This document shows positions 2,719 to 57,402 of a DNA stretch of 64,000 bases, one piece after another. Under the pieces are notes generated by a model. The model was not told where the DNA came from, ran no database searches, and was given only the letters and a program-made list of their open reading frames with translations. The translations under genes were made by a program, and so were the position numbers. Source of the stretch: Thuidium tamariscinum (taxonomy: Eukaryota > Streptophyta > Bryopsida > Hypnales > Thuidiaceae); contig OX344754.2 of the NCBI GenBank assembly GCA_947034885.2, forward strand, positions 12,569,501 through 12,633,500, written 5' to 3'. Position 1 is the stretch's first letter. Every line of letters begins with the position of its first letter.

Positions 2719-3811
2719 GGGTAATTGCATGAAACACTTGTACTGCTATGTTGCATCATGTTTTGTAGTGACTAGTTTTTTAGCCATAACTTTTGTTTTT
2801 TAGCTCCAAATGATTCAAATTTTTTAAAATGGGTACTTATAATTATTATACATCATTCATAATTTTTGAGGATTTAAAAAAAATATTTTACTATTTTTAA
2901 ATAGCCCCCGATTTTTTGTCATACATTCCAATTTAGGGGTTTTTAGTACTATTTAAAACCCCAAAAAAAGAATTTTGAGTTGAAATTTTGAGAGGATGTT
3001 TTCTTAGTATAATTATAGTTTATCTCAAAAGGAATTTCAAAAATAGTCATTTTCATGTGGTGTAGAAGTCTACAAAGAGACCTTTTTTCTGCTTGCTTTT
3101 TGAAATGTGTAAAACATTTTTTTGGTGATTTTCTTGTTCAAGCCTTATCACCAAAAAGTCTTCTCAAATGGACTATTTTTATTTTTATTTTAAAAAATGT
3201 TTTTTATTTTTTATTAATTAAAACATTGAAGTATGTATTTTCTTCACCGGAATTCTATGTGTTCTATGTCCAAAATTCTAGTGAAGAAAAATACAACTTT
3301 AACATTTTAATTTGTAAAAAATAGAAAAAACAAATTTAATGAAATCCAAAAATTGTCCATTTGAGAAGACTTTTTGGTGATAAGGCTTGACCAAGAAAAT
3401 CACCAAAAGAATGTTTTATATGTTTCAAAAAGCAAGTAGAAAGAAGGTCTCTTTGTGGACTTCTACACATCAAAAAAATGACTATTTTTAAAATTCCTTT
3501 GGAGATAAGCTATAAGTCTACTAATAGAATATCCACTCAAATATTCAGCTCAAAATTCGTTTTTTTGGGTTCTAAATAGTACTAAAAACCCCAAAATGTC
3601 AAAGTGTGACAAATTAACAAAATTAAATTTTAAATATCAAATTATTTTTTAAAATTTGTAAAAAATAAGGATAATAATGTGAGTCAAGATATCTAGGAAG
3701 CCTTTTTTTTTATTTTGGGCACTTAGTTTTTTATTCAAAAGTTAGAGCCATCTTAAAGCGGTCAACCCCAAAAAATGCAACAAATAGTACAGGTGTTTCG
3801 TGCATTCACCC
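2719..3811. mobile_element. 4-bp-TSD family element, fold-back derivative
   Basis: The left end is GGGTAATTGCATGAAACAC and the right end, read inverted, is GGGTGAATGCACGAAACAC. Both sides carry the 4-bp direct repeat ATAA (2715-2718, 3812-3815). Other members are about 720-745 bp and not palindromic. This one is 1093 bp and nearly a complete palindrome: roughly 2900-3178 pairs with 3344-3610. Both arms match the right half seen in the 24392-25114 member, so it looks like two right halves joined head to head. The short ORFs inside lie in the arms and look accidental. Confidence 0.75.
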
Positions 3812-4747
3812 ATAATGCTAATTCAACGTTCGTCAATCGCTTGTTCAAAATAAAGTTGTGGCAATAGGGGGACGACTTTTCACTATTGCAAACCACCGAG
3901 CTAATAGAAAGGGAAGTCCATAGAGAAAGGGCACAAAGGTCATGTCCCAAACCTTAGTTTCTTGAATGGAAGAGTTTAGTGAAATAGGTTTGCCTAATTG
4001 CCTATAGTTTATGGATTGTTCAAGTTGGGCTAATTGGGTGGAATTCGAAGAGATCATGGTATCGAATTCGAAGAAGTCCTAGTCAGCGATAGCAAGTCTC
4101 CTCTTAGATGCTAGTCATTTCTTACTCCCCGCCAGCTGGTGAGCTTGTTCCATTTGATTTCTTTGCAATTGAGTTGCTACTTCTAATGTCAATTGATTTT
4201 GCAATTTATGCAAAAGTTGTTTTGTATTCATCCAAGCTTCACCTTTGCAATGAGATGCTTCTTTTTTATTTTCGTCCAACTACAATCCAACATGGCCACC
4301 ATGCTCTAAATTGTGTATGTTTCTACTTTCTACCTAACTAGTTCTTGTATAGTGTGTGTTTGTTTTGCTTTTTGAAATTTTGTTTCCTCGCTATGGTAGA
4401 AAGGGTCAAGATGTTCACGCAACTTAGGAAAGATGGAGTGACTTTCAGTCATAGGATTTATCTAGATTTATTCTAGCTATTTAAAAATTTCATCTAGTGC
4501 AACAATATTTGGGAATTCATCAATGGAAATATCCGGAAATTCGTAAAAGTCAAACATCCATCCCAAAAATGAAAATATTCAAAAATTATAATCTTATATG
4601 AGCGGCTAGCAAAATGAATTTAGCCCCAACTAAAGAATAAATATAGCCCCGGCTCATGGCACAAAAATGGGGCTAATTGGTTTAGCCCCCACTTTTTTCA
4701 GTTAGTGTTGTCAAAGGGGGCTGAAATTGAGGCTAAACCACTGCAGT
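3812..4747. other. Intergenic DNA, no gene seen
   Basis: Moderately AT-rich sequence without a supportable gene. Between 4600 and 4740 there are several imperfect AGCCCC / GGGGCT motifs in both orientations, perhaps a decayed small inverted-repeat element. No target duplication was found. Confidence 0.4.
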
Positions 4748-4751
4748 TTAA

Positions 4752-4996
4752 CCCCTGAGCGCCCAGAGCAAATTCATTGAAATCCAAACCTTTCTAAACT
4801 CATTCTGGACACTCAATCTTTCTTCTAAGAAGAAACCCACATAAACCAACCATACAGATTGGTAGTCAAGAGAGACCTAGAGGTTTGGGGAAAAGGACAC
4901 ATCCTTTGACTATATCACACAAAAGATTATAATAGTCAAACAAGAAAGTTTTTCAAATTGGAGAGGCCAAATTTTGGTCTCTGGGGCACTTAGGGG
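4752..4996. mobile_element. piggyBac-like miniature element
   Basis: The 245-bp element is flanked by TTAA on both sides (4748-4751, 4997-5000). The left end CCCCTGAGCGCCCAGAG pairs with an inverted right end CCCCTAAGTGCCCCAGAG. TTAA target duplication with ends beginning CCC is the pattern of piggyBac-type transposons. There is no coding capacity, so it would depend on a transposase elsewhere. Confidence 0.75.
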
Positions 4997-5000
4997 TTAA

Positions 5001-6678
5001 CCCCGACTGAAGCATTTAAAGTTCCCATGGACCCCTGTGTATAATACAAGAGTTGCATACCTGGGAGTCTTGCATTTTTGAGCTATAAATAGAGTTACAA
5101 GTAGAAGTTCTGCAGTTTGTTCATGGGCTAGCTTGAGCCTTGAGTGCCAGCTGACATGAAAAAAAAAATCCATCAACCATTGAAGAATTGGGCATTGTTG
5201 GCTGATAACACTGAAACTCATGGACTAACAATACATTGATCCACAAGGCACCCCTAATTTTATTGATGCCTGTTTTTTTGTTCAAGTACATTTAATTTTC
5301 AAGCTATAACCTCAAGTTCAATGATACCCTTGAAAGTGGATATCATAACCCATCTTATACCTCCAAAACCCAACCCACATTCAACACAGACTGCACAGAC
5401 AGACCGCGTATTTATACAAGGTCTCCCTCTCTTGCTTCCTGTGTCGTTTCTCATCACTCAGTTGGTGACCATGAACTGGGCCATGAATATGGGCTCACAA
5501 CTTCAATTCAGAGTCTGTCGCTTGTTTCCACAACATCTGGGTCCCCTCAAAATTCACAAGCAGATCGATATTTGGCACAAGAAAATGATGCTTCCTTCCA
5601 TTTCAAAATTAAGGATTAAAGGTCAATTTCATTGAATTGAGGTTATTCCTCAACTTTGGTACATTCAGGACATGCACCTCAAATGGAAATCTATACCTGT
5701 CCTAGTTTTGAGAGCTACAGATTTGTGTCACAATTTTGGTGATAAGTTCTAGTGATCCAGTCTTCCCGAACACAAACTTAAGGCTCTCTTGAATATACTC
5801 CACTGCCATTTCATCTTCATCATTGTTCATATCCATATCAACACCTCCAAAATTGTGGAAGTAACTAAAGTTTTCACTGCGTAACTATTTGAAACATGCA
5901 TAACGTTTTATGTCAAGCACCATTTCATTTCAATTTATTGATGCAAAATGAAGCAGAATTTCATTGCAAAGAGCAAAAAAACAAAGCTACCAGGCAACAA
6001 GTGGCCTGGTGGAGCAGATGTCATGCACCATTTCAAAGTTTCAAGTTTGCTATAATGTAAGTTAGCAAGCTGGTCAAAGTATCTTATGTTGCCTGGACCT
6101 GTGTGACCTTGAATCTCAGATAGATTTGAATGTCTGGGACTGACTTCTGAGTAGCTGGGGCTGCCATTTCAATCTTTGAAATGCAGGGCAAGTTGCAATT
6201 GAGGGTCATAGATTAAACACGCTTGTTCACACTCAAGTGCACAGGGCTCTCAATTCTGTGGGAGTCTGGTTTCAGTTGTTTCAAAACAAAAAAACAAAAC
6301 TGCAGTAAGATAGTACTGAACTGTACAAGGATGGCTCTGATGAGTTTCCAGATGGCCATAATCATCAAAGGAATAGTGCCAGGTTCTTGAGATTATGCCA
6401 TTAGCAAATACAACCATTTTAGTTCTTCAGTGGAATCTTGCAAAACTGAAGTGCCAGAACAAGGAGTCTGGCCATTGAATGCTAAGTTAATCTATTGAAT
6501 GTGTCCTGCACTGCACATGGTCATTCTGGAATGCAACATTATGAGAGCCTTGTCTCTTAAGCTTAAGAGTATTTGCAATGCTGTCCCAGTATGTGACCCA
6601 GTACCTGTATAACTAACTTGAAATATTTAGTTCAATTTTTTTTTTTAAATGTTAAGGTTTAGGGTTTAGGGTTTAGGG
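5001..6678. other. Intergenic DNA, possible exon relic on the minus strand
   Basis: No gene can be confirmed. On the minus strand, 5897-5718 holds an open frame of about 59 codons ending in TAG and containing EDEMAVEYIQESLKFVFGK. It has a gene-like look but no recognised homology. Near 5940-6025 a block with AATTTCATTGCAAAG and GTGGCCTGG resembles 63200-63260, probably a dispersed retroposon fragment. A run of three TTTAGGG units lies at about 6655-6679. Confidence 0.35.
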
Positions 6679-7759
6679 TTGAACTAAAAGAAGTTGGAGA
6701 ACCAAGTTAATGTTTATCTCTCAAAATTCGTTTCCAGGGATTTTGGAGCCTCATGTATGAGTTATGAACCAAATTTTAGAGGGTGTGGAAGGGAGATTTT
6801 TTTGGATATTTTCAAAGCCCCTCTCTAAAATTTGTCCATAATTTTTAGATGGAGTATTGAAATCTCAAATAGGTTTTTGGAAATAAAAGTTCACTTGATT
6901 CCCTAACTTTTCCTAATTTGAAGTTTTTTGAAAAAATATATTTTACTATGTCTAAATGAGGTTTGAATTTGACTTTTATCACAATTCCTGCATTAATGGG
7001 GAATTTCGTTAAAATGGCGGTATTCCACATGCCATTTTCACACCTTGACATCTAGGACAAGTATACATTGCTAATATCTAGGACACTTTTAGATTTCTGA
7101 AATCTATGACAAGCATAGATATTAGACCAAACAATCTAAAAAATCTAGGATTGGTATAGATTTCAGAAATCTAGGAATTGGTGTAGATTTCCAAAATCTA
7201 GTACAGGTGTAGATCCTAGGATAGAAAAAACGGTTCAGAGCGCGCAGTCTAAACTGCTCAAAAGCGCCAATTTAACGAAAGGGCGCCATTTTAACGAAAT
7301 TTCCCATATTATCACTTAACCATAAGTGATTGAGTGGTAAAGCTCTTCTTTGTCCTAATTCACATATCCCACATAGTTTGTTTCACCTACCACTATCCCA
7401 CTAGTATAAAGAGCTTCTCTCCTCTCCAAGCTCCTCACAAGATTGGCCAAGAAGTTCAAATGAGAAAGTGGATCAAGAAATGAAATATGTAGCACAAATG
7501 TCACTTCATTGGATTGTATTCTAGTTTGTTGCTTAGATGTATGGAACTATGGATTGACAACTTTTGGAGAATTCTTGTTGGTTGACATTACAGGAAAGGG
7601 TGTGCAAGAATGGAGAAAAAATCAATTGAAGGCAAAATAAAAGCAATTTCTGCCTGTATCCCAGCCCTACCCCGAAAAAGGCTCACTGCGTCAAACCAGC
7701 CCCCTGTAATAACACCAAAATATTTAAGTTACTAACTTAACAGCCGGTGTGCACGTACC
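6679..7759. mobile_element. Solitary right arm of a GGGTAC fold-back element
   Basis: This matches the right arm of the neighbouring complete element (10189-10939) from GAACTA at its start to GCCGGTGTGCACGTACC at its end. It is interrupted by the 312-bp insertion at 6996-7307. No left arm precedes it, so it is a truncated or recombined copy. It carries the same TATAAA box (7405-7410) within a conserved context as the other arms. With the left arm of the next element it forms a large inverted repeat centred near 7767. Confidence 0.65.
6996..7307. mobile_element. 312-bp ATGG-ended miniature element
   Basis: The ends are ATGGGGAATTTCGTTAAAAT and, inverted, ATGGGAAATTTCGTTAAAAT, flanked by ATTA on both sides (6992-6995, 7308-7311). 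The homologous arm at 10490-10520 lacks the insert and reads straight through (TCCTGCGTTTTCACTTAACC), which confirms the borders. A second member of exactly the same length lies at 51547-51858. The interior is a set of imperfect repeats of AATCTAGGACAAGTATAGAT. No ORF. Confidence 0.8.
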
Positions 7760-7775
7760 GTAAGTTACTAACTTA

Positions 7776-10700
7776 GGGTACGTCCCCACCGGCTGTTAAG
7801 TTAGTAACTTAACTATCTCGGTGTTATTACAGGGGGCTGGTTTGACGCAGTGAGCCTTTTTCGGGGCAGGGCTGGGATGCGGGCAGAAATTGCTTTTATT
7901 TTGCCTTGAATTGAATTTTTTCCCATCCTTGCACACCCTTTCCTGCAATGTCAACCAACAAGAATTTCCCAAAAATTGTCAATCCATACATCCAAGCAAC
8001 AAAGGAAAATCCAATCCAATGAAGTGGCTTTTGTGCCACATATTTCATTTCTTGATCCACTTTCGCATTGGAACTTCTTGACTAATCTTGTGGAGAATTA
8101 GGAGAGGAGAGAAGCTCTTTATACTAGTGGGATAGTGGTAGGTGAAACAAACCATGTGGGATATGTGAATTAGGACAAAGAAGAGCTCCACCACTCATGG
8201 TTAAGTGAAAACGCAGGAATTGTGATAAAACTCAAATTTTAGACCTCATTTAGACATAGTACAATATTCTTTTTCAAAAAACTTCAAACTAAGAAAAGTT
8301 GGGGAATCAAGTGAAATTTTATTTCCAAAAATCATTTTGATATTTCAATACTCCATCTAAAAGTTATGGACAAATTTTAGAGAGGGGCTTTGAAAATGTC
8401 CAAAAAAATCTCCCTTCCATACACCCTCTAGAATTTTGTCCATAACTCTTACATGAGGCTCCAAAATCCCAAAGTGGATTTTGGGAGATAAACATTAATT
8501 TTGAACATAATTCTTGCATTTTCACTTAATTATTAATAGCTGCATTTAATGTGAAAAAAATTGAAAAGTGTTTAAAATGGTACAATTCTAGAAGTAGAGA
8601 ATTCTCTACTTAAGTAAGTGAACCCAATTATGATCCACATATTAAGTTGATAGTCTTTACAAATTTTTATCTATTATGTAGAATACTATTGTAGGAACAC
8701 AGATTTCTTAGCATTGTGAATTTTTTTGTCCAGTCATACATTGTCTACAAAAATGCATTTTAGGATATTTTAGAGTACTCTATTGACTTCTACTAATATC
8801 CTACAAGAAATTGGTAGTTTCTATAGATGTGCAATTGCATATTTTGTCACATATAAGCATAATTACTTTATGAGAATATAAGTAGTGATGTTTTTATTGT
8901 CAACCCTCCATTGTAAATATTTGTTTCACATGTATGTGTAATGCATAAATTTTTTTCAATTACAACAAATTTTCATTCAAGCAATGAAATGAAAAATTAT
9001 ATTTTTCAAATATTTGAAAGGTAGGTGTTTTTCAATTCATTTAACAAAGACTAGTCATTGAAGATATTAGAAGCTTCATATAAATATTTTCTAATCATCA
9101 ATTTTAACATTCAAACAAATTAAGAATGTAAAAAACATTGTACAATATTATACACTATTAATAGCACATTTAGGTTTGGTATGAATTTACTTTCAGCATT
9201 TGGGGAATTAATCCCATTTAATTTGTAGTAAGTTTAGAATAAATAATTAAAATTTACCAAAAAATTAAATAAATATTTTTTTCAAAATTTATGCAATGAT
9301 TAGTATTGAGTACTTTGAAAAGAAAATACAAACAACATTGGTGTTGAATTCTACAAACACGTCCCTTCCAGCCCTTCTTTGAAAATTCTCTACCACTAAC
9401 ATTATACCATATTCAACAGTTTTCAATTTCATTTACAAAAAATGAAGTACTTCATAGTTACACCTCAAAGTTTCCTCCTTTCTTGTTTCATTGTTGTTTC
9501 AACATTTGGTGCAAGCTATTAGTGCACTTTTTGAAAGTAGTGAGAACAACTAAAAATTGGTCTATTGTTATTTGGAACACTCATGGAATATTTTGGGATG
9601 TTTATCTACTGGTTGAAACATATTAAAAAAAAAGTATATTGTTGCAGCGCATTGTAGTTAGACCATTAGAATTGAAATCAATCCATATTACCACAACAAC
9701 ATTTAGCCATTGTTAAAACAACGATTAGACAAAATATAAATTATGAGAGCATTCATCTATTATTGAAACAACAATGAGACATTTTTTAAGTAGAGAAACT
9801 TAAGCATCATTAATACAATTATGAAATATTGTTAAAGAATATATTTTTGTAACCATGCTTGATATAATATTGAAACAACCTTTCAAAAATTCTATTTACT
9901 GACAAAATAACAGCTTGGATAGCCAAAATGTTGGACTACTTGAATTGCACACAAAATTTGTACAACACTTACAACTTACAATGTACTCAAGCCTTTTCAT
10001 TTGCTTGACTTGTACTATAGACAAATTAGTAAGAAGTGACCAAGAGACTTCATCGAATACACCTTGTACAAGTATTCCAATAGTCTATAAATAACTTGCA
10101 AGACAAAGATTTCCATAGTAAATGAAGTGTCTTACTTTTTGATACCATGTTTCAATCAATTGTCTTTGTGCTTTCATTTGTAATAAAATTGAACTACAAG
10201 AAGTTGGAGAACCGAGTTAATGTTTATCTCCCAAAATCCACTTTGGGATTTTGGAGCCTCATGTAAGAGTTATGGACAAAATTCTAGAGGGTGTATGGAA
10301 GGGAGATTTTTTTGGACATTTTCAAAGCCCCTCTCTAAAATTTGTCCATAACTTTTAGATGGAGTATTGAAATATCAAAATGATTTTTGGAAATAAAATT
10401 TCACTTGATTCCCCAACTTTTCTTAGTTTGAAGTTTTTTGAAAAAGAATATTGTACTATGTCTAAATGAGGTCTAAAATTTGAGTTTTATCACAATTCCT
10501 GCGTTTTCACTTAACCATGAGTGGTGGAGCTCTTCTTTGTCCTAATTCACATATCCCACATGGTTTGTTTCACCTACCACTATCCCACTAGTATAAAGAG
10601 CTTCTCTCCTCTCCTAATTCTCCACAAGATTAGTCAAGAAGTTCCAATGAGAAAGTGGATCAAGAAATGAAATATGTGGCACAAAAGCCACTTCATTGGA

Positions 10701-10939
10701 TTGGATTTTCCTTTGTTGCTTGGATGTATGGATTGACAATTTTTGGGAAATTCTTGTTGGTTGACATTGCAGGAAAGGGTGTGCAAGGATGGGAAAAAAT
10801 TCAATTCAAGGCAAAATAAAAGCAATTTCTGCCCGCATCCCAGCCCTGCCCCGAAAAAGGCTCACTGCGTCAAACCAGCCCCCTGTAATAACACCGAGAT
10901 AGTTAAGTTACTAACTTAACAGCCGGTGGGGACGTACCC
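7776..10939. mobile_element. Long fold-back DNA transposon, GGGTACGTCC ends
   Basis: The 3164-bp element has inverted arms of about 730-750 bp (7776-8503 against 10189-10939) and TTA on both sides (7773-7775, 10940-10942). The outermost bases are GGGTACGTCCCCACCGGCTG. Three-base TTA duplications occur in PIF/Harbinger-type elements, but the terminal sequence is not a textbook one, so the class is tentative. The 1.7-kb centre is AT-rich with no ORF that could encode a transposase. Each arm carries TATAAA (minus 8118-8123; plus 10592-10597) pointing outward. Confidence 0.75.
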
Positions 10940-10942
10940 TTA

Positions 10943-11412
10943 GGACATTTCAAAATCCCAAAGTCCAGGAGTCCAGGAGTTCTGACCACAGAAAGGACAA
11001 ATTTATCATATGTGGCTCAGCACAGACCCGTCATGATTGACATTCAGTGCCTCTAACTGACCTAACACTGCCCTGCAGTCAATTGCAAATGGACGAACTT
11101 CCAAAATTGTTTGAAAGAGAAAAGTGCGGAGCAAAAGTATTGGCGAGCATTTGATTTGTTGGTGAGCCAAAGGAGTCCCTCATGCACGTGGGCTACAATT
11201 TTGACATCAAGCAGCTACAGTAGCCTTTCCGTCAATGCCACCAGTAGCTAGGCAGCATCATGAGATTCTATCATGTATTGCATTTCTAGGCAGTGTTGAG
11301 ATTTTGATTTCTCTCCTTTCCCCTCTGTTACTCTCTTTTTGCTTGAAATCTTGGTGTTTTGACGTGGAGATTGCACAGTCAAGCAAGGGACCAATTGGGG
11401 AAGTTACCCAGG
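10943..11412. repeat. Duplicated upstream segment of the bHLH locus (copy 2 unit)
   Basis: 10945-11020 aligns with 53115-53175 (shared TTTCAAAATCCCAAAGTC and ATGTGGCT), and 11355-11395 aligns with 54275-54310 (GAGATTG, CAGTCAAGC, AGGGAC). These blocks are the distal upstream parts of the duplicated unit, now separated from the gene by transposons. No gene inside. Confidence 0.55.
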
Positions 11413-11415
11413 TCA

Positions 11416-13621
11416 GGGTACCTTCCCACTTGCTCTTAATTTAAAATCCGGTGCAATAACAGGAGCACAATTAGCTACCGAGCCTCTGTCAGGGCAGGCT
11501 CGGAGGTGAAGCAGTTCCGTTCAGGAAGACAAATCTGAATAGCCGCATGATTAAACTTGATAAACACTTTTCCATGCTTTACCGCCAGTGATTTTATTTT
11601 TTTATTTTTTCACAAATGAAACTTACAACCAGTGTTATCAATTTTTCCTCATGTATACAAGCAAAAAGATATTTTCACTTGAATGATGAAGCTAGTTTCA
11701 TCCATGTGCATGAATGAAAAATCAATTTGACATAAGGATGAACCTTAGTTTATTCATCATTCAAAAATATTTCATTAGCAAAAATTTGAGGTCTATGGAT
11801 ACTATGGAAGATTGCAAATTCTTGGATTGTAGCAATGCTATGGAATACTAAGAATGCTACCACAAAAGCAATCGAATGTGGTTGTGCAACGGCCACATCA
11901 AACAACATTAACTAATTAATATTTAAGTAATTATTAAATATTCCTTTAGAGACAAGTGGAATTGACATCTAATCCAAGTCATTTCATATTTTTTTGGAGC
12001 TTTGTAAAATTAGTTATAAAATTTGAAGTTGAAATGGCATAGGGTTCTAAAATCGCCCATTTGATTGGGTGAAAGCATGACAAATCAACCAGTTTTCGTA
12101 GCATTTTCCACAATACTCATAATTTTTTCAAGAACATTGTATAATTAGAAAAATATTTTTTAGAAAATTAAAAAAGTGTTCAATGTGTATACCTTGAAGA
12201 AGAAGGTACCCTAGGAAGGAAAGCATAGAAAAAATCTTTAGGTAGGAGAAGCAGTAGAAAAGTGTAAAAGTTCATGGAAATAGGTACTTTGACATTTTAA
12301 TTTGTAAAAAATAGGGAAAAGAATTTTAAAACAATTAAAAATTAGAAATTTGGAAGAACTTTATGATGAAGATATTTCACCTAAGGATTAATCTCAAAAC
12401 TATCTTGAATGTTCAAAAGTGAGCACACAATGGAGGCCTATTAACTCACATGTAGAAGAAAGGAAATGATGATTTTAAAATTTTCCTTGAGTAGAAATAT
12501 GCCTACCTAGTATAGGAATAGACCGCAAAAATTTCAACTTTAGGTCTTCAATTTTGGATACTCTCCTATACTAAAAAACCCTAAAATGAAAAATGTAACA
12601 AATAATTAATATCTTTAGGAATCACAAGAATTAAAATTTTACATTTTACATTTAAAGAAAAATAAATTTTAAGGATGTTACAATTTTAATCAATCTACAA
12701 CTTGATTAGTTAATGTCATTTGATGTGGTTGTTGCACAACCACATTAGAATGTTTTTGTGGTAGCATTTTTAGCATTTTCATAGTATTGCTATAATCCAA
12801 GAACTTGCAATCTTCTACACAATCCATTGGCCTCAAATTTCTCCTAATGACATAATTTTTGAATGACGAAAAAACTAAGGTTTATCCTTATGTCAAATTG
12901 ATTTTTCATTCATGCACATGGATGAAACTAGCTTCATGACTCAAATGAAAATATCTTTTGCTTGTCCTAATGAGGAAAATTGAAAACATTGGCTTTAAGT
13001 TTCATTTGTGTAAAAACAAACAAACAAAAAAAAAACTGGCTATGAAGCATGCATTTTACACTCACATGAGAACTTTTTGATCTGGGTGGATTGGCCCCCT
13101 CGCTCGGCCTTCACATATTTTACCAGAGGTGCAATCAAAACAAAAAGCCCCCTAGTTTGGGCCGTGATCACCCCTACTTTCTTCACCCCCTAGCTAATTT
13201 GCGGTTTGTGATCGCAAACATGAATTCAAAATTTGCAAAAAAAAATCAGTGTGAAAAATAAAAAATTACAGTGTTTTACCCAAGTGGCCGAGCGAGGGGG
13301 TCAGTTCTCCCTGCCCAACTTTTTGGGCCTCAATCCACAATATCCAAGTTCATATCTTTTATTAAAAAACTTAAGCATCTCTAAAAAAAGAATTGAATGT
13401 GGGGCTATATGACACAGGATGGAGTCACTTCTTATGGTTGGCCAGCTCATGCTCTGTCAATTTATTTTGATAGCTCATTACGATATTTAATTAGCTTTGC
13501 TGATTTGTCTTCCTGAACGGAACTGCTTCACCTCCGAGCCTGCCCTGACAGAGGCTCGGTAGCTAATTGTGCTCCTGTTATTGCACCGGATTTTAAATTA
13601 AGAGCAAGTGGGAAGGTACCC
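11416..13621. mobile_element. Fold-back element with GGGTACCTTCCCAC ends
   Basis: The 2206-bp element is flanked by TCA on both sides (11413-11415, 13622-13624). Its ends GGGTACCTTCCCACTTGCTC are near-perfect inverted repeats for about 130 bp. A second pair of arms, 11590-11930 against 12700-13030, also pairs. The terminal motif GGGTACSTYCCCAC is shared with the element at 7776-10939, so both belong to one superfamily. The middle (about 12067-12640) is a decayed copy of the 4-bp-TSD family, and 13093-13301 looks like a later small insertion. No transposase ORF. Confidence 0.72.
13093..13301. mobile_element. Small nested inverted-repeat insertion
   Basis: The ends GGCCCCCTCGCTCGGCC and, inverted, GACCCCCTCGCTCGGCCAC bound about 209 bp that breaks the symmetry of the surrounding fold-back element. 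No clear target duplication could be read, so the exact ends are uncertain. Confidence 0.5.
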
Positions 13622-13719
13622 TCAGTCTTCCAAGGAACAGATACAGTATCACAAGTTCTTTTGAATAAGCTTACGTTGTCTCCCTTTTGTTCAGTGTCCT
13701 GAAAGCCACACTATACAGG

Positions 13720-13724
13720 ACCTG

Positions 13725-13763
<39 letters not shown>

Positions 13764-14110
13764 TATTTATTTTATTTATTTATTTATAATTTATTTTATT
13801 GGGAGAGAGATAAGGTTACAATAGTTGAAAGAAACAACCAAGAGCAGCCTCAGCAACTGAAGGCACTGGACATTAGAGCATCCATCCCACTGTGGCTGGG
13901 AGCAAAAACAGTCCCCACCCTGATGCGGGGGGTTGTTTTCGAATCACCAGCTGTTTTTTGCCCAACTGAAGGTATCTCAGCTTGGCATGTGCGGTGAGAT
14001 TCTTGGTGGAGCCCTGAGTTGATTAATCTTTGTGTACTATTCGATGAGCTTTTTATTTATTCTTTATAATGGTGAGCCAATGGAGCTCTCTATCTCTTCT
14101 CTATAGAGGA
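13720..14110 (-). repeat. ATT/ATTT microsatellite, possibly a retroposon tail
   Basis: 13720-13800 is a run of ATT, then ATTT, units. Read on the minus strand it gives (A)nT-type repeats after AACCTTATCTCTCTCCCAAT, which resembles the A-rich tail of a non-LTR retroposon whose body would extend to about 14110. No reverse transcriptase is present. The retroposon reading is weak; the microsatellite is certain. Confidence 0.5.
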
Positions 14111-17626: not shown

Positions 17627-19108
17627 AAGTGAATGCAAGAAACACTTGTACTATTTGTTGCATTTTACTATAATACTTATGACTTTTTCTAAAATACTTT
17701 AAAATTAAAAAATTAATTTGAAAAAAATTTGAAAAATATAAATAATATATACACCTCTAAGATGAAGGTTTTCACCAAAGAAAATTGATAGAAAAATTCT
17801 CTAAGTAGGAGAACTTAAAAAGTGCCAAACCTCAAGAAAATACATATTTTCATGTTTTAATTCAGAAAAAATAGTATAAATAAATAAATAAATAAAATAA
17901 AAAATGTCCATTTGCAACAACTCTATGGAGATGGTCATTCACCAAAAAATCCACCAAAATAATATTTTATATGTTTCAAAATTCAAGCAGAAAGAAGCTC
18001 ACTTTGTAGACTTCCACACTACATAAAAATAACTTTTTTCAAAATTCCTCACGTAGAGAGATGTAAATCTATTAGAAGACCATCTCATCCAAATTTTGTC
18101 TCAAAATTATTAAAAGAAGGTACTCTTTAGTACTAAAAACCTCCAAATTGTCATTTATAACATTTAATCACTAGTACTATTTTAGTATTAAAATATTTTT
18201 GAAAATTATGTAAAAATTAAGGAGAGGAGTATGATAATCATGAGTACGGGTGAATGCAAAAAACACTTGTACTATTTGTTGCGTTTTACTATAGTACTCA
18301 TGACTTTTTCTGGAGTACTTTAAAATTTGAAAATTAATTTGAAAAAAATTTGTAAAAAATGAATAATGTATACACCTCTAAGATGAAGGTTTTCACTAAA
18401 GAAAATTGATAGAAAAATTCTCTAAGTAGGAGAATTTAGAAAGCGCCAAACCTCAAGAAAATACATACTTTCATGTTTTAATTTGGGAAAAATAGTAAAA
18501 ATAAGTAAATACAAAAAATAAAAATTGGCCATTTGCAACAACTCTACGGAGATGGTCATTCACCAAAAAATCCACCAAAATAATATTTTATATGTTTCAA
18601 AATTCAAGCAGAAAGAAGCTCATTTTGTAGACTTCCACACCACATAAAAATAACTTTTTTCAAAATCACTCATGTGGAGAGATGTAAATCTACTAGAAGA
18701 CAATCTCATATTCTCATCCAAATTTCATCTTAAAATCATTAAAAAAAGGTACTCCTAAGTAGAACTAAAAACCTCTAAATTCTCATTTGTGACATTTAAT
18801 CACTAGTATTATTTTAGTATTAAACTATTTTTGAAACTTATGAAAAAATTATGTAAGGTGTATGATAGACATGAGTACCTTCTCTAAAAATCTTGAGTCA
18901 TTTCAAGCAAAGATCCAAAAGTTATGGCCAAAAAACAGATCAGCACTTAGCTTGTGACGGAAAATAGTATAAGTGTTTCTTGCATTCATCCGTACCTTTT
19001 TTAGAAATTTTGAATCATTTCGAGCAAAAATGCAAAAGTTATGGGCAATAAACAGATCAACACTTAGCTTGTGACAAAAAATAATACAAGTGTTTCTTAC
19101 ATTCACTC
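17627..19108. mobile_element. 4-bp-TSD family element, outer copy of a self-nested pair
   Basis: The ends are AAGTGAATGCAAGAAACAC and, inverted, GAGTGAATGTAAGAAACAC, with TGTA on both sides (17623-17626, 19109-19112). It is split by another member of its own family at 18248-18991. Without that insert and the inner duplication it would be 734 bp, the family's usual length. Inner and outer copies are very similar in sequence, so both are fairly young. No coding capacity. Confidence 0.88.
18248..18991. mobile_element. 4-bp-TSD family element inserted into its own relative
   Basis: The 744-bp copy has ends GGGTGAATGCAAAAAACAC and, inverted, GGATGAATGCAAGAAACAC, flanked by GTAC (18244-18247, 18992-18995). 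The target context ATGAGTACCTT is recognisable in the uninterrupted relative at its own 18870-18885, so the 4-bp duplication is read against a true empty site. Confidence 0.88.
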
Positions 19109-24382: not shown

Positions 24383-26013
24383 CCCTTAAAAGGGTGATTG
24401 CAAGAAACACCTGTCCTATTTGTTGCGTTTGGCTGATTTTTTTTAGAGTACTTTAAAATTAGAAAATTAATTTTTTGTAAATTTGAAAAATATGAATAAT
24501 GTATATACCTCTAAGATGAAGGTTTTCACTAAAGGAAATCGATAGAAAATTTCTCTAAGTAGGAGAACTTGAAAAGTGCCAAACCTCAAAAAAATACATA
24601 TCTTCATATTTTAATTAGGGAAAAATAATAAAAATAGATATTTTCAAAAAATAAAAATTGTCCATTTGCAACAACTTTATGGGGATGGTCATTCACCAAG
24701 AAATCTACCAAAATAATATTTTATGTGTTTCAAAATACAAGCAAAAGGGAGCTCACTTTGTAGACCTCCACACCACATAAAATTAACTATTTTTAAAAAT
24801 CCTTCCTTACGGAGCTAGAAATCTACTAAAAGACCATTTCATCCAAATTTCATGTTAAAATCATTAAAAAAAAAGTATTCCCTAGTACTAAAAACCCGTA
24901 AACTACCTAGTGTGACATCCAATTGGGGTCCATTTTTGGATAGTAAACTATTTTTGAAAATTATGAAAAAATTATGGAAGGTTTAGAATAGTTATGAGTA
25001 CCTTTCATACAAATCTTGAGTCAATCAAAGCTAAAATACAAAAGTTATGGCCAAAAAACATATCAGCATGCACCATGTGACACAAAATAGGGCAAGTGTT
25101 TCTTGCAATCACCCAAAAGCCCATAGTCCCCTCGGGGGACAATTTGGAGTTCGGGTAGGTTCCGATGACCTTAATTTTTGGTGAAACTTTTTTAAACTTT
25201 CTCATAAGATAAATTGATTAGCTTTGTGGGAATATCATTATTAATTCAATTGGTTCCCGGGAGCAAAAGTTATACCACAAAAAGCCCAAATTTTCATTTG
25301 GCGAGCTGAAAAATAATTCTACAAGAACTTGAAATTAAATTTTTAAATTTTTTTGTCTTATAGATCATATTTTTGTCTATGTATAAAGCTTTGATTCATT
25401 CCATTTCAATTAGTTATGTGAAAGTTATTAACAATCTTGTTTTTGGGTAGTTTGAACATCTTCTTGAAAAATAACTTGTATGATTCATTTTTTAATGAAA
25501 TTTTCACATTTAAAAAAAAAATTGCTTAATAAGGTTAAATTTACTTACTAGAACAATCTCACCATTAGGATTATTGTGTTTCAATTTCATCTTAGAGCTA
25601 TTAACAATTAAATTTTTCTTTCAATCTTGGACCTGCCTCTACTTAATAATTTTTTAAAGAATAAAAATCAAGCATTTTTTTTTTGAAATTTTTTTCCTAT
25701 AATTCAACTCAATCCTAAAGACAATTAATTTTTAATTCAAAATCCTTGGTGTAAGAAAACTCAACAAATGGCAATCAAAGTCATCTAAATTTGCAAGATA
25801 GTGTCTAAGAAAATTATGTTTTCTAACTTTGAATGCTCATATCTTCCAATCTATATGGTCAAACTTCATTAAATTTTTACCACATGATCTCAAACAAATA
25901 AAGTAGAAGATATTATGGTTAGATTCTATAAAAACATTTTTTTTTAATGAATGCAGCAAAGATGGCAATTTTAAGTGGTTTTTGACAGAAAAATGGCCTT
26001 GGGCGTTTAGGGG
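24383..26013. mobile_element. piggyBac-like element, interrupted by a nested element
   Basis: TTAA flanks both sides (24379-24382, 26014-26017). The left end CCCTTAAAAGCCCAT is seen when the nested element (24392-25114) and one AAAA copy are removed. The right end inverted is CCCCTAAACGCCCAAGGCC. The interior from 25130 is AT-rich with no transposase. Length without the insert is about 900 bp. Confidence 0.68.
24392..25114. mobile_element. 4-bp-TSD family element
   Basis: The 723-bp element has ends GGGTGATTGCAAGAAACACC and, inverted, GGGTGATTGCAAGAAACACT, flanked by AAAA (24388-24391, 25115-25118). It is the cleanest member for defining the termini. Its interior matches 18248-18991 along most of the length. 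No coding capacity. Confidence 0.85.
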
Positions 26014-29650: not shown

Positions 29651-30392
29651 GGGTCATTGTAAGAAAGACCTGCCACAAAGCATAGTATTTTGCACAATAT
29701 TCATTTTTTTCTTTGGGAGTACAATATAATTAGTAAATCAAATTTTAAGAAAAAAAAAATATGTTTGATGTATATACCTTTAAGAAGAAGGTACCATAGG
29801 AAAGAAAAGCATAGGAAAATTCTCTAAGTAGGAGAACTAGAATAGTGCAAAATTTTATGAAAATCGTAACTTTCACTATAGTTTCACATTTTAATTTGTA
29901 AAAAATAGGAACTGAAACTTTTCTTAAAACTAAAAATTTTCCATTTTGTAAGACTTCATGGTGAAGAGATTTCACCATAATAATGATTTCAAAACCGTCT
30001 TGATTGTTCAAAAGTGTACGTGCAAGGGGGCCTGTTAGCACACATGTGGAGGAAAGAAAATAATGATTTTAAGAACTTCCTTCAATAGAAACATACCTGC
30101 CTATAGTAGGAATAGACCCTAGAAATATCAGCTCTAAACTGTTAATTTTAAGTACTCCCTAGTACTAAAAACCCCTAAACCGCAAAGTGTGACAAATTAG
30201 CTAAATTTTAATTTTAATATAGATTCTTTTTTGAATTTTTTTGAAAAATATAAGTTCTCATTAATATCAAGTTATCCATCTCCAATAAAAATTTCAAGTT
30301 CAAAGAGTTAATGCTTCAAAAGTTATAGCACATGACAACTCCGTCACTCAAATTGTGATGCGAAATAGTACAAGTGTTTCTTGCACTCACCC
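29651..30392. mobile_element. 4-bp-TSD family element
   Basis: The 742-bp element is flanked by AAAT (29647-29650, 30393-30396). The left end GGGTCATTGTAAGAAAGACC is somewhat diverged; the right end inverted is GGGTGAGTGCAAGAAACACT. Its interior also matches the decayed copy inside 11416-13621. The 98-codon minus-strand ORF inside is not conserved in other members and looks accidental. Confidence 0.85.
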
Positions 30393-31034: not shown

Positions 31035-31474
31035 AGGTGATTGCAAGAAACACTTGTCTTATTTTTTGTCCCCTTGGCCTTAGATAGGTGGTTTTCCCTT
31101 CATAATTTTTGTGTCATTTTCTCATTTTACACTAAACTTAAAACAAAGGTACATATAATAGTTTTTAAAACTATGTAATTTTTTGAAATTAAAAATATAT
31201 ATTTTATTATTTTTAAATAGACCCTCACTATAAGGAACCCGTGTTTTTTTGGGTGTCAGGCCAAAAACATAACATGTTTCAAAAAACATTACATGTTTTA
31301 TAGAACATTGGGATGTCCAGTGAATGAAGGCTAAAAAAAGGGAAGATTTAATTAAATGTTATAAAAAGCATGCTAAATTATTGTCACAACAAATTGGTGT
31401 TATCCAAAACAATGATGTAGTTTAAAACATGGTTGTCAATATAAAAATGTTTTTTAAATCATCCAAGAAAACAT

Positions 31475-36540: not shown

Positions 36541-37274
36541 GTTGACCAATGTTTTTTTTGATGTTCAAGGCTTAACATGTCATGTTTTCATTAGCATAGC
36601 ATGTTTTTGGCACATTAAAATTAACGCAAGTAAATCCATGTCCGTTTTGACATGATAAAACATCACACGTAACATTCCTATGTCAAATCTGTCGTTTTTC
36701 TTGACACCCAAAAAAACACGGGTTTCTTATAGTGCCTAATTGGATGTCTATTTTTGCCATTTTAGGGGGGTTTAGTCCTATTTTTCCCCTCCAGAAGAAA
36801 ATTTTAAGCTCAAAATTGGCATATAAGGAATTTTACTAAATTTTCACAATCCTAAGAAAAGATTTTCTACGAATAATAAATTGTCCAACTTCCACATGTG
36901 CTCAAAGTGCAATACTTTTGTGCAGATGCAGAGAAGACAATTTATTATTCCCATGGATGAAAATGGTTAAAGAAGAGAATCTTTAAGTTAGAAAAATATC
37001 TCTTTTTTGAAGAATTTTTTGAATTTTTTTCTAGTTTTTAAAAATCAAACATTGAAATGTCCATTTTCTTGGTATTTTCCATCACTCTTTAATTGTGCAT
37101 AACTTTTAGTAATAAATTTTTTTAGGCTTAAATCTTCATACATCTTAGTTTTTTTAATGATTTATAAAATATCCATATTTTATTTTATTTAAAAAAAATT
37201 ATCCCAAAAGTCACAAGACTCATTGAAATATGCCACTTTGAGCCAAAAATGGTGAGTGTTTCTTGCAATGACCC

Positions 37275-45336: not shown

Positions 45337-45842
45337 TAGTATGATGATGGATCTGATTGCTGTGTTTCCACCTGCGGACGGATATTACAGAGCCTGCATG
45401 AGGGAGCAGATTACCCAAAGTAATGGGGACAAAAGACTAAACGACATCTCAACGCAAAATGGCCTTAAATTAAAATTAGCCAAAAACTGTAGGCAACACC
45501 GATGAAATCCACTTTCATCCAGCTAACTGAAGTGGATGGCATAGTATTTGTACCCTTGCTCCACGGATCGAACACGAGTCGTGATCAAACTGTTTTTGAA
45601 AATTGGAAAAGAAACCATGTAATACAGGCCCAGAGTCACCATTTTTTAATGCTAATGTAGGAAGTCCTCGTTAGAGCGAGTTTATCATATCTGGGAAGAT
45701 AACAACAAGTGCCAATCCTTTCCAGTCTTATTATAAAAAACAGCCAAGTTTGTGGGTAAAGATACTTTCTTTCTAGAAAAAACAACAAGAAGTCACCTTG
45801 GATCAATTTATGACACGGATTTTCTTTTTTGAGGAAAGAATT

Positions 45843-46154
45843 TCCTACAGGAACATCAACAATAGATCCAGAGCGCTTGACAATGTCTCCTTCTTTAATA
45901 GCAGTATCACTACCAAATATAACAATTTCTACATTCTCATTTGCTAGATTCAAAGCCATTCCTTTCACACGGCTGGCAAATTCAACCATTTCTCCAACTT
46001 GAATCTTGTTTAATCCATAAACACGTGCAATTCCATCTCCAACTGATACCACTCGACCGATCTCATCCACTTGCAATTTGGTCTAATTGGTAATTCTTTG
46101 TTCTAATAATGTAGATAGTTCTGCTCCAGCCAACTTATTTCCAGTTAATTTGTT
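45843..46154 (-). pseudogene. atp1: Nuclear copy of mitochondrial atp1 (ATP synthase F1 alpha), N-terminal fragment
   Basis: On the minus strand the frame reads KLAGAELSTLLEQRITN, then a TAG stop at 46085-46083, then [20 protein letters not shown] and on to [14 protein letters not shown] and IVDVPVG at 45843. This is the N-terminal crown region of the F1 alpha subunit in its mitochondrial (atp1) form. About 100 of roughly 510 codons remain. The in-frame stop replaces a tyrosine position and one neighbouring codon is missing. Homology ends abruptly after VPVG, before the nucleotide-binding domain. No transit-peptide gene structure is seen. It is a dead mitochondrial insertion in nuclear DNA. 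The KLAGAELSTLLEQR start is typical of bryophyte-like atp1 as I remember it. Confidence 0.85.
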
Positions 46155-49100
46155 CGTAAAGTTAGTGCCAGGTTCTTGAGTGATTGTGCAAATGTGACCA
46201 TTTAACTTATTCAGAGGGACCTTGCAAAGGGCTTGTCTGCTGGAAGCCTGGAACAAAGCAGGCCTGGAACAATTTCTGAGAGACAGTCCATCCAATGCTA
46301 GTCTAACTTATTACAAGAGTTGAGGACCGCACGTGGGGATGCTGGACTGCAACAGGAATTCGTTATGAGTGCCTTATTCTCTCCATTGCAACCTGAATCA
46401 ACCAATGATCCAGTCTCATGTGGGGTCCAACTTTCAAGTATTCAACCGCTATTTCAGAAGGCTTTCACACCACAAAACATCTTTTGGTAATTGATTATGA
46501 TTGATAAAAGATAGAAGCCAGTTTAATACCAATATAATGTGTATTGCTAGTAAAGTAGTAATAAAATTTTGAAGTTGAGATGTTCAATATCAGTACAGTG
46601 AAAACCCAAAATAATGCTTATTCCTGTGGTGCAGGATACTATTTGAGAAAGGACAGTTTTTGGACATGCCATTTTCATTCCTTACTCATGACAAAAGAAT
46701 GCTGTTAGAACCAAGTTCAACCAAGGCGCCACTAATCTACGCTCCCCGTAGCTGCACCAACAAAAGTTTTCATCACTTTTCAACCCCCATCCACAACTCT
46801 TTCTGCTCTGGGCAGCCCGTGCATCTTCCTTGCGCAAAGAGAGAAAATATCCGAGCAAACGAGATTGTTGTGTTCATTTTGCTTATGATTTACTGCATTT
46901 GTTTACAATTTACCACATTTGTTGAGTCTGTGGTGCCAGCCTGTTTGTACACGTCTTCAATTTCATTAGGTATTACACAGTCTCAAAACTCCTGCTTGAT
47001 TTGGTGGTATTTTAAACTAAATAAATAATTTGTGCACAATAAATTCTGTGCTGGAACCTTTGACAAAAAAATCTGCATAATCATCATTCTTGCATCCACG
47101 AGTTTGCCTCACAGTGGCTCCTGCACTGCCTCAATCTGCTGTGTGATGCAGGGTTGCATGATGTCCTGATGAGGGTGACATTAATTCTGACCAGCCTTGT
47201 TGTTCAGGAAAAACTTGAAAATATCAAGCAGATGAATTTTCACTCCAGGCTCTGGATTAGAGGGAAAGGCACGGGCACTATAACAAAATATGGTCGAAAA
47301 AACCTGCGCAAAAAATTTTCTCTGGTTTTTTTTGCCATATTTTTGTGCGCATTTTTCTTTGCATGTTGTGCATAGTGAATAGTCAACTTTGGTAGTAATT
47401 TTCCACTGCAATTTTTGGAGTTAGGAAGAGTGTCATATATCAATGGAAAGGTATTTTGAATACATATTTTTTTAAGTAACAATGTTGAAACACAAAAGTT
47501 CTTCACTTTTTAAAACTACTAGAAAAGCCTACATTACTATTGACTATCGACCTTGCAAATTACAATCAATGGAGATGTTACTCTAACATTTTGATAGGAT
47601 GTATTTGAACTAGTTATCCAAAAATTATACAATTGAATTTTTTTTTGAAATATGGATGAAGAGTTTAGTCTTGCTTTGGAAACTAGTATTTTGAAGCTAT
47701 TTTGGGCCTCTAAATATGACAAAATTTTAGGAATTAAACAACACTATTGGAGAGCCTTGAATGGAGTATGATAATCTTTTAAGCTACTAAAATAATTAAT
47801 TTGCCATAAGTATGTTAATATGAAGGAAATAATGAATTTTTTCCTTTCCAAACCCAAAAAAATTTAAACAAACTCTTAGTTCAAGATTTTCTTAATGTAA
47901 AAAAATGAAGATTGGAACCATAGGATCTTGACTTTGAACCCTTTTGAAAAGTGTAAAACTCAAATTCTTTACAATTGGAGGGATTGAAGTGCTAAAAGCT
48001 GAATTTTTTGTATTCTATACCAATCCCCATGAGTAACTATCATCTTCAAAATTCAATGAAAATTTAGAACATAAAATTTATTTTGAAACCTTTATTATAT
48101 TGTATATGCGTAGGATTGTTGCAAAAAACACCTACAATTTTTGGCTCAAAACAACCTATTTCACTAAGTATTGATACTTGGGAATAAAAAATTTAAAAAC
48201 AAAAGAAATATGGATAACTTACAAAGCTTTGAAAATAATGTGTTTCCGAAATTGAATTGAGACCTAAAAAAACTTATCTTTAAGAGTTAAGCCCAAAAAA
48301 ACTTGGTTGAAAATACCAAAAAATTGGGCACAAATGTTTGTTTTTAAAAAAATAGTAAAATAAAAATTTTAAGTATTTTTTTTCTAACTTCAAGATGCTC
48401 TTTTGCAACCATTTTTTAGTTTAGGAGGGGGAAAATATATTCTTTGCACTTGTATAGAGGTAGTGCACTTTGAGCATGTGTAGAAGATGGAAACTTTACT
48501 ATTTTATAAAATCTCTTTGTGGACTCATGTTACTTTAACAAAAATAATAACTAATTTTAAAAAGTGAAAAAAATTATTCAATGTCTAAAATTACCACTTC
48601 GTCTATCTTCATTTCAAACTTTTATGTAAAATTAACAAGAAACACAAAAGCTATGAACATAAAACCACTTTTCCAAGGTCGAAGAGACAAAAAATAGAAC
48701 AAGTGTTTCTTGCAATTAGCCACTCAAAACTAGAATTTGAATTCAATACATGTGAAATGGATTTTATGCCAATTCCATCTAGTAGAAATTATAGCCAACG
48801 TAGATTTGTAGAACCACCAAGGCCTTAATTTCAAAAAGATTGCTAAGTGCCCACCCTTAAATCATTGTTGCTTTTCAATAATTCTTGGAATTGATTTTGT
48901 GGAGCTATTATACTTAATAGTGTGCAAATTTATTTTTTGCATTTGTAGCAAAAATCTACGCCATCCCCAAAAAATAGTTTGCACTTAAACAAGTCAAAAG
49001 TCTAATTGTAGTTCTAAACTATGTAGAAACTTAAAGTAGTATTTGATGAAGCTTTGAAAATCACAGATTCACAATAAGCTTCCAAAACATTTAAGAGACT

Positions 49101-54720: not shown

Positions 54721-54729
54721 ACCTGATCG

Positions 54730-55134
54730 ACCGTTCCCACTCCAGAGCTGCATGCAGCCTTACAATACAATCTAATCCTAGACCAGAACTTGTCGAATTA
54801 ATTCCAATCATAGCTGTAAATAGCGCACGATGAGAAAACCTCGAAAAGTGCCGCCCCACCCCACCGAAAGCAACTGAATCGTCTTTAGGAAGTAAGCGGC
54901 TTGAAACGAGATGCTATCTCTTTCGCAGTGTTGTTTGGTTGGATCAATTTTGAAGCATTACCTGCGGAGTTGCATTGTCCGGCGCTGCCAATGCCCCTGC
55001 GCCTGATATCTCCAGCATAAAGCAGGCACGGCAGTTTCAAACCGCTATCACCGAACTTCAATAGATCGATAACAGGAAATGTTTTAGAGTGTTTTCATAC
55101 TAGCTAGAGCAGTTGATCAGAGCACGCTCTCGCC
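54730..55134 (+). promoter_or_regulatory. Promoter / 5' UTR region of bHLH copy 3
   Basis: Colinear with 19521-19957 and 58510-58907 (GATCGACCGTTCCC, AAACCTCGAAAAGTG, CACCCCACCGAAAGC, GCTAGAGCAGTTGATCAGAG). It precedes a truncated coding stub, so any transcript would not encode a full factor. Confidence 0.45.
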
Positions 55135-55345
55135 ATGGAGCTCGTGGATTCATTGGACGAAACGTTCCAATGGCAAACCCCATTCTGTGGCACCCTTCTG
55201 AACGACGACATGGGACCCGAGGGAAACATCCCCAGTCTGGATGCCATGCTGGTCAACGTTGAGCTTCCGGAGATAAACTTTGGCCCCGAACAAGCGGCAC
55301 CTGCTTCCCACGCGCGCGAACCCTTTATCAGTATCTCAGACTCCA
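55135..55345 (+). pseudogene. bHLH-ACT copy 3, truncated in exon 1
   Basis: The first 65-70 codons align with copies 2 and 4 without a frame break (MELVDSLDETFQWQTPF, then SLDAMLVNVELPEINFG and a final PFISIS). Similarity stops near 55345. The rest of the N-terminal region, the basic region, helices and ACT domain are all missing, and an inverted piece of upstream sequence follows. The open frame runs on to a stop at 55399-55401 (89 codons in all), with unrelated residues at the end. It could make only a short acidic peptide. Confidence 0.82.
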
Positions 55346-55399
55346 TATGTCTAAAAGCTACTAGACTATCTATCACCGTTGCTACAATGAAATATATGT

Positions 55400-55825
55400 A
55401 GTACTAACTTAGTTCCAAGGCTGACGCAATATAGTGCACAATATGATCTCCAAGGCTTCTAGAACATGTAGTCCCCTCATTTGTTAGAGTCTTTAGCTTT
55501 TGAACACTTTGCAAAGAATTGGTAGTGATCTCGAGGTTTCCATTCATCAAGACCCAAAATCTTTGATTGATGCATGAAGCACTTTGTAAGTGTGTTGCTT
55601 GATGTTGACTAACGTGAGCAAAAAGAGTAAAATATAGTAAAAAAATCTTATGCACAATACTTTCATATGTTTACATCAAGTGGGTAACTGGGTACTGGGT
55701 AGAGTTTACTATAGGTCTTCTAAAATGCAATCTTTGTACCTTGATGAAAAACATGCTACATGATTAAGCTACGCAGTCTAATTAATAGTCACATGTGTCA
55801 GATTTGTTGTGGCAAGTGTGTTTTG
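55400..55825 (-). repeat. Inverted copy of the bHLH upstream segment
   Basis: Read on the minus strand it has, in order, the CATGTAGCATGTTTTTCATC block with AAAGATTGCATTTT (near 55740), then the CAATTCTTTGCAAAGTGTT block (near 55517) and a TTGCGTCAGCC stretch (near 55425). These are the same blocks that precede copies 2, 3 and 4 in + orientation. With 54345-54690 it forms an inverted repeat that flanks the copy 3 stub. The frame reading LEITTNSLQSVQKLKTL, then SLGDHIVHYIASALEL looks like decayed leucine-rich repeats. Confidence 0.65.
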
Positions 55826-56671
55826 TTACATTCATTGCAAGTGCCGATTAAGTCGTCCATCTAATGTCATAGGCAGTGGTCAAAGGAAAATACACTACTG
55901 GACCTAGTTTTGAGGGGTGGATTACCTATTTGCCCCGTCTGTACAATACATTATTTTATGTACGAATTGATTATAGATCTCTTATTATTCAAAAGCAAAA
56001 TGTATTTTTGCCAATGCTAATCCAATGAACTGATTATAGAGGAAAAAGTGGTTTTGATCCATTGAATTAATCATTTGCTGGAAATGAAATTTTGGACAAA
56101 CCTAAAAAAATATTTTGGAGGTTGGGATATATGTTAGTTCACTTAAGTAGCTGCACACTTCTCATCCAAGAGCAAGACCTACACTGAATAGTAGTCTTAT
56201 AGGATCAAAAAATTGAAGGGATTGATCATGAAAAATTGTAGATTATTTTTTTGTTGACATTGTAAATGACTTCATTTCATTGTCATTTGGTAAGTATGGG
56301 GTTGTGATGGGAAGCTCTAAGTTATACAATTCAAGTAGGATAGTGGTAGCATTTACAATGCATGTGGGATATGTGATTATATGAATTGGAAGGAGAAGGA
56401 GCTCCACCATTTAGTGAAGGGAGATTAAAAATAGTATTAAAATTCAAATTTTGTGATTCATTTAGGTATAGTTGTTAAATTTTTTTGGAAAAACTTCCAA
56501 CCACGAAAAGTTGGGGAATGAAGCAAAATTTCCAACCCAAAAATTGGTTTGAGATTTCAAATCTTTGTGAAAAATTTAGGAACAAAATTCAAACCGAAAG
56601 TTTGAAAGAACATTCCTCACTTAAGGGGACTTATACTAAGTAATTGACATTCCTCACAATATAGATATCCA
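55826..56671. other. Intergenic DNA with a fold-back arm relic
   Basis: No gene is seen. 56335-56640 is a diverged relative of the GGGTAC fold-back arms (AGTAGGATAGTGGTAG, CATGTGGGATATGTGA, GGAGCTCCACCA). Its outer end is missing. Confidence 0.45.
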
Positions 56672-57402
56672 GGGTCATTGCAAGAAACACTTACCGGTTT
56701 GGGCTCAAAATGGCTCAAAATCAGTGAGTTCTGTGAATCCTGTGACTTTTGGAATAAATTTTTTTTAAATTGAAAAAAATATGAATAATTTGAAAAACAA
56801 TGAGAATATTATGTCTCTTGAAATTCAGACCTAAAAATTTTTTCCTCTAAATGTTATAGACAATGGAAAAGACAATGAAAATAGCTCTTTTTTCACTAAT
56901 TTGGTAAAAATGGTAAAGAAATTCAAAAAATGAAAATAATTTTTTTTTTCTCCAAGTAAAGGTCTTTCTTTTCCAATAAATTTCATCTTCGAAAAAAATT
57001 AATTCTATTCTCTACACTTATACAAAGTCAGCCACTTTGATGACATGTGGAGGTTGAACAATATAGTATTTAAAAAAAATCTCTTTGTGGTCTTGTGTAA
57101 CTTCAGGTGAGGTCCTTGCATGCCAATTTTCAACTCAAAATTTGCATTTTTGGGTCAAAAATAGGACTAACCCCCCCCCCCCCCCCAAATGGCCAAAGTA
57201 GACACCCAATCGGGGGCAATTTAAAAATAATAGACTAATTTTGAAAAAATTGAAAAAATTACACAAAATGTAAAAATTTTGTAGGCACCTTCATTTTAAG
57301 TTTCAAGTCAAATGAACAAAAGATGCAAAAGTTATGAGCAAAAAAATACCTACTAAAGGTCAAGGGGACAAAAAAAAGGACAAGTGTTTCTTGCAATCAC
57401 CC
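56672..57402. mobile_element. 4-bp-TSD family element, second subfamily
   Basis: The 731-bp element has ends GGGTCATTGCAAGAAACACT and, inverted, GGGTGATTGCAAGAAACACT. The flanking 4-mers TCCA and TCTA match at three of four bases. It shares TTTGGGCTCAAAA at one end and TTTTTTGTCCCCTTG at the other with 31035-37274 and 48113-48721. A run of about 18 C lies near 57171-57186. Confidence 0.78.

Follow-up and report, generated by a model that had tools for sequence, protein, structure and literature searches.

A numerous family of short non-coding elements with variable 4-bp target-site duplications in the moss Thuidium tamariscinum

Introduction

Miniature inverted-repeat transposable elements (MITEs) of plants, such as the Tourist- and Stowaway-like elements, are short, non-coding, AT-rich sequences with inverted repeats that are present in thousands of copies and are flanked by duplications of TAA/TTA (3 bp) or TA. 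The family described here was found in a 64-kb stretch of the genome of the moss Thuidium tamariscinum (C6:12569501-12633500, i.e. 64,000 nucleotides of contig OX344754.2, referred to below as the window); the whole genome has 363,211,507 bases in 19 contigs. Like plant MITEs, its members are short, non-coding and AT-rich, with inverted repeats and thousands of copies, but their duplications are 4 bp long and vary from copy to copy, a length that is, to our knowledge, uncommon among plant transposons. The evidence below makes it very probable that the family consists of non-autonomous, MITE-like DNA transposons, present in very large numbers, of ~730 bp with inverted repeats of ~23 bp beginning GGG.

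Several named superfamilies can be compared by their ends and duplications. Ginger ends are TGT, the end motif of CACTA/CMC elements is CAC, and Sola2 ends begin with GRG. Sola elements have, according to PMC10741241, 4-bp duplications, very variable ends and inverted repeats ranging in length from 11 to 1,124 bp, and their presence in the moss Physcomitrella is reported there; the Sola2 elements of slime moulds are described as having AT-rich 4-bp duplications (PMC3627910). In PMC10045372, 4-bp duplications are given for Ginger1/Ginger2 and IS481EU (IS481EU ends being TNT..AYA or TGT..ACA), duplications of 0 to 4 bp for the PHIS group and its bacterial kin, and 5'-CC..GG-3' ends for piggyBac/IS1380. 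A further paper (PMC4482050) states that PHIS elements (PIF/Harbinger, Pangu, Nuwa) often have ends starting with G or GG and duplications of fixed motifs, e.g. ANT, CWG or TNA, and that the duplication of CACTA/CMC elements is 2-4 bp.

Structure of the family

Eight copies of a non-coding element with a typical length of ~730 bp, plus one partial copy, were assigned in the window (Table 1), which has a G+C content of 34.5%. Terminal inverted repeats of ~23 bp, GGGTGATTGCAAGAAACACTTGT, are present at both ends of all eight and also of all 26 copies sampled elsewhere. When up to 4 mismatches were allowed, the end GGGTGATTGCAAGAAACAC was found at 16 places in the window, which were assigned to the eight copies; a 17th match with 5 mismatches (33285) lies inside a CACTA-type element and was excluded from the count. 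When 31 copies were aligned, the commonest letter averaged 96% over the first 20 columns. The sampled copies are 676-756 bp long (median 728, n = 26), and the longest open frame was within the range of shuffled sequences in 30 of the 31 copies, the exception being that at 29651 (107 codons; shuffle maximum 83).

The ends named in the initial annotation, which had been made from the letters of the window, were found where it had placed them. Its length range of 723-744 bp held for the copies of 723, 731, 742 and 744 bp and for that at 17627 (734 bp without its nested copy), but the copies at 2719-3811 (1,093 bp) and 48113-48721 (609 bp) fall outside it. Within the former, a 340-bp segment is duplicated in inverted orientation (2915-3254 / 3274-3613, 83%).

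Target-site duplications

Identical 4-mers were observed on both sides of 26 of 34 two-ended copies (21 of the 26 sampled copies and 5 of the 8 in the window), compared with 11 of 1,122 in a mispaired control in which left flanks were set against the right flanks of other copies. Exact flank matches of other lengths (n = 34) numbered 6 at k = 1, 6 at k = 2, 1 at k = 3 and none at k = 5 to 8. The two flanks agree at the four duplicated positions in 32, 32, 29 and 30 of the 34 copies; at the four neighbouring positions to the left and to the right, where flank is compared with fixed element letters, agreement drops to 2-8 of 34, and further inside, where the element has A or T, it is 11-16 of 34. 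The 26 exact duplications comprise 22 different words (counted by hand), which are AT-rich as is the genome, and TTAA is not among them (0/26). The five exact duplications of the initial annotation (ATAA, TGTA, GTAC, AAAA and AAAT) were all confirmed, and its claim that the duplications are variable 4-mers rather than TA, TTAA or repeats of 3, 8 or 9 bp is borne out by these counts. The excess of matching 4-bp flanks is also strong elsewhere in the genome, as far as one contig goes, contrary to the outcome by which the initial annotation would have been refuted.

The sampled copies came from the first 29 of 100 listed genome places with the end, each on contig C1 and each showing a perfect 19-bp end. 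Of these, 8 were read as loci and 21 lay within 20 stretches of 9.9 kb (loci and stretches are cited by L numbers). A two-ended copy was obtained at 24 of the 29 places but not at L074, L079, L082, L087 or the listed end of L088, and two extra copies in the stretches (L077 9070-9817 and L088 3426-4158) were added to give 26. L073 was added by hand. A false pairing in the window (17627-18991) was left out, as were three pairs that looked broken or mispaired: L079 1249-1652 (2/4 matching), L081 4950-5962 (2/4) and L081 6024-7621 (0/4). With these three counted, the proportion of matching 4-mers is 26/37.

Uninterrupted sites were also found. For 6 of 32 copies the joined flanks match an uninterrupted site across the junction, most clearly for copy L070_1501, whose empty site is in the window at 26150-26018 (84% over 134 bp, one gap), and for the nested copy at 18248, which has many siblings with the empty site.

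Ginger1/Ginger2 and IS481EU share with the family 4-bp duplications, but its ends are GGG and not TGT. Ends starting with G or GG are a likeness to the PHIS group, which also takes in ISL2EU and Spy; a duplication of 4 bp with 22 words in 26 cases is, however, unlike the short fixed motifs, or the lack of a duplication, found there. CACTA/CMC elements differ in having CAC where this family has GGG.

Abundance and history

Across the whole genome 9,901 forward and 10,016 reverse ends were found within 2 mismatches (19,917 in all), against 0 and 1 for a control with the reversed pattern. The same threshold takes in 12 of the 16 window ends and 18 of the 26 worse ends of the sampled copies. Resting on these small samples (the window ends and the 26 sampled copies), the copy number is estimated at ~13,278-14,385, which at 730 bp each is 2.7-2.9% of the genome.

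The family comprises several subfamilies, with nested insertions within it. Among the 31 copies, identity to the nearest copy is 90-94% within several groups and averages 54-69% to all others, and a tree has short tips inside the groups, whereas two of its inner branches are long (0.35 and 0.55). This pattern in 31 copies suggests that a long-lived, gene-less lineage may have multiplied in several waves with its length kept.

Nature of the family

The MITE features seen here are inverted repeats at both ends, a fixed 4-bp duplication length, small size, no coding capacity and many copies. In such a family a DDE/D-type transposase supplied in trans would bind the terminal repeats and move the element by cut and paste. 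It would join the ends to two target positions 4 nt apart, and repair of the gaps left by this staggered joining would produce the 4-bp duplication.

Some points weigh against this assignment. No transposase was linked to the family ends in the DNA read, so that movement in trans is something we infer. Well-kept copies are over-represented in the sample, as 24 of its 26 members were located by means of a perfect 19-bp end and a single contig holds all 26, and the duplication test covered two-ended copies rather than the degraded copies in the same stretches. If the family is made up of non-autonomous transposons, its coding partner may be rare, diverged at its ends, or lost.

Search for a coding copy

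The DNA read amounted to 298 kb of loci and stretches plus the window, ~0.1% of the genome, and no longer copy encoding a transposase was found in it. No coding copy with family ends was recognised in the 198 kb of stretches plus the window, a search that elements above 8 kb or with more than 6 mismatches in the 23-bp end would escape. Apart from one split copy, the longest end pair was L081 6024-7621, which at 1.6 kb consists mostly of family pieces and has a frame of 134 codons.

The split copy spans 31035-37274 and was considered as a long, autonomous copy, a reading that did not hold. The segments 36739-37274 and 31036-31224 match the copy at 56672-57402 collinearly on the opposite strand, and between them lies a CACTA-type element of 5,509 bp (31226-36734) with CACTATAAG ends (CACTATAAGGAACCCG...CGGGTTTCTTATAGTG), 113-bp tandem repeats at 35371-35717 and CCT on either side, a 3-bp duplication being usual for CACTA elements. 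When the flanks of this element were joined (at a point some two bases away from the true junction, an offset that leaves the match unaffected) they matched uninterrupted sibling copies of the family. This is therefore a copy of ~728 bp, as calculated from the coordinates, split by a 5.5-kb insertion, and the window's only long pair of ends does not represent an autonomous copy.

Other candidates for long copies were also rejected. The element at 11415-13622 has different ends (AGGGTACCTTCCC), in terminal inverted repeats of 129 bp that are 98% alike, with more inverted repeats inside and no clear duplication; it contains the partial family copy at 12095-12603. L082, considered as a long one-ended copy, matches the family over only 194 bp. 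In L087 and L088, considered likewise, the common stretch extends past the family end and there is no frame above 154 codons.

Short copies mostly have T at the three positions that follow the end, and in the whole genome 19 places were found where the end is followed by three non-T letters. No two of these atypical ends face each other within 10 kb, and comparison by eye placed none that close to any of the listed DUF7869 (150) or piggyBac (116) matches; an autonomous element with T at one such position would escape. Comparison with Pfam covered four frames, two of L080 and one each of L077 and L096. A gene with DUF4218, a domain of plant CACTA elements, was found among them. An exact scan of viral contigs with the inner end gave 68 stretches with a 15-base match, which were taken as chance. 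No occurrence of five family end strings was found in the literature text searched, which says little, and no account of such a moss transposon family was recognised from titles and abstract openings among the matches listed.

Candidates for the driving enzyme

By duplication length, the likeliest named candidate would be a Sola-type enzyme, which is a best guess and unproven. The short copies would then have arisen by deletion from a Sola element of this plant and be moved by its DDD transposase; this is a real possibility, though one that falls somewhat short of probable. The 26 duplications have the length known from Sola and are variable and AT-rich as the genome is, and Sola (Sola1, Sola2), with its variable terminal sequences and its presence in a moss, is the named superfamily that fits best by elimination. 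A Sola transposase was not, however, identified in the DNA read, and the two were compared by published description.

It is rather doubtful that what is seen here is one half of a system whose enzyme either belongs to an undescribed superfamily or is related to piggyBac/IS1380 but no longer bound to TTAA, its gene-less ~730-bp lineage multiplying in several waves. Taken separately, a transposase superfamily not yet described is an unlikely driver. No named superfamily that could be checked fits both the ends and the duplication, and the coding partner was not found, but this is absence of evidence only, from reading ~0.1% of the genome.

A piggyBac/IS1380-type transposase that lost its TTAA specificity and kept its 4-nt stagger is very unlikely to be the driver. 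The length of the duplication agrees, and such genes are abundant in this genome: among 659 candidates for PF13843, 116 matches were scored. Many of these have long open frames, and ten have one and the same score and a frame of 1,023 codons (counted by hand). However, TTAA is absent from the 26 duplications, the family ends are GGG..CCC where those of piggyBac/IS1380 are CC..GG, and the 19 atypical ends are all away from the 116 listed matches, as described above. In L080, which carries a degraded piggyBac gene (frames 5621-7939), positions 1967 to 9901 of the stretch are free of family ends.

A DUF7869 protein as the driver is highly improbable. The domain (PF25273) was chosen as that of a possible transposase; the protein has ~1,000 amino acids and in our own reading may carry RNase-H-like motifs, and it is very numerous in the genome, with 150 scored matches from 853 candidates. 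A family end with 2 mismatches in 23 adjoins a 1,069-codon DUF7869 frame at one of six loci (L098/L103), yet the six loci total ~21 kb, and a family end is to be expected about once in 18 kb in any case. The start points of other copies of this element make it an unlikely driver. Among 43 other matches to its edge none includes the whole end: 21 start at the first base after it (one with 93% identity) and 9 later, while 13 start inside the 23-bp end, one of them at base 10 (C11:1520359, 93% identity), and speak in favour of this candidate. Homology with two other DUF7869 elements starts inside the L098/L103 end, and from there on the flanks of the two relatives differ. A second class of DUF7869 elements ends in AAGGCC[T/A]TATTC. 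On these findings the terminal sequence of the family is not shared by the DUF7869 elements of this genome. The DUF7869 gene at L098/L103 probably belongs to another element that abuts a family end.

Some further observations were made on the DUF7869 elements. At L103 553-576 the element seems to begin right after the 23-bp family end, perhaps because it inserts at ends of this kind or has in common with the family an end that has decayed. Contig C11, which is 17.5 of the 363 Mb, holds 47 of the 150 scored DUF7869 matches (counted by hand) and none of the 116 scored piggyBac matches. In the second class, L106 and L108 must be recent copies, being 99.5% alike across 6.1 kb, and L107 adjoins a tandem repeat of ~176 bp.

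Copies and other features of the window

Table 1. Family copies and parts of copies in the window
Feature	Position	Strand	Remarks
Copy, 1,093 bp	2719..3811	-	Orientation opposite to most others; duplication ATAA at 2715-2718 and 3812-3815
Partial copy without ends	12095..12603	+	Within unrelated element 11415-13622
Copy, 734 bp without nested copy	17627..19108	+	Interrupted by copy 18248-18991; duplication TGTA
Nested copy, 744 bp	18248..18991	+	Duplication GTAC; uninterrupted site seen in sibling elements
Copy, 723 bp	24392..25114	+	Perfect 19-bp ends; duplication AAAA
Divergent copy, 742 bp	29651..30392	+	Duplication AAAT
One end (191 bp) of copy split by CACTA element	31035..31225	-	
Remaining 537 bp of split copy	36738..37274	-	4-bp duplication no longer present
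Short degraded copy, 609 bp	48113..48721	+	Duplication no longer present
Copy, 731 bp	56672..57402	+	Flanks TCCA/TCTA, 3 of 4 alike

Three other features of the window were recorded. The segments 7772-8498 and 10217-10943 form a 727-bp inverted repeat, 100% complementary and 1,718 bp apart, which is either recent or has been kept alike by conversion. A helix-loop-helix gene recurs in pieces, two of them longer copies and the others fragments, at 19893-22264, 55070-55313, 58843-60721 and 1-1132; one piece is above the Pfam cut-off and one just below it. On the minus strand at 45636-46082 there is a fragment of an ATP synthase alpha gene, ~85 codons followed by unrelated sequence, with best matches of the mitochondrial type; it is perhaps organelle DNA in the nucleus.

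Conclusions

With ~20,000 recognisable ends in 363 Mb, this family is a major repeat of the genome. A coding element with the family ends would assign it at once, either to a plant Sola or to something new.

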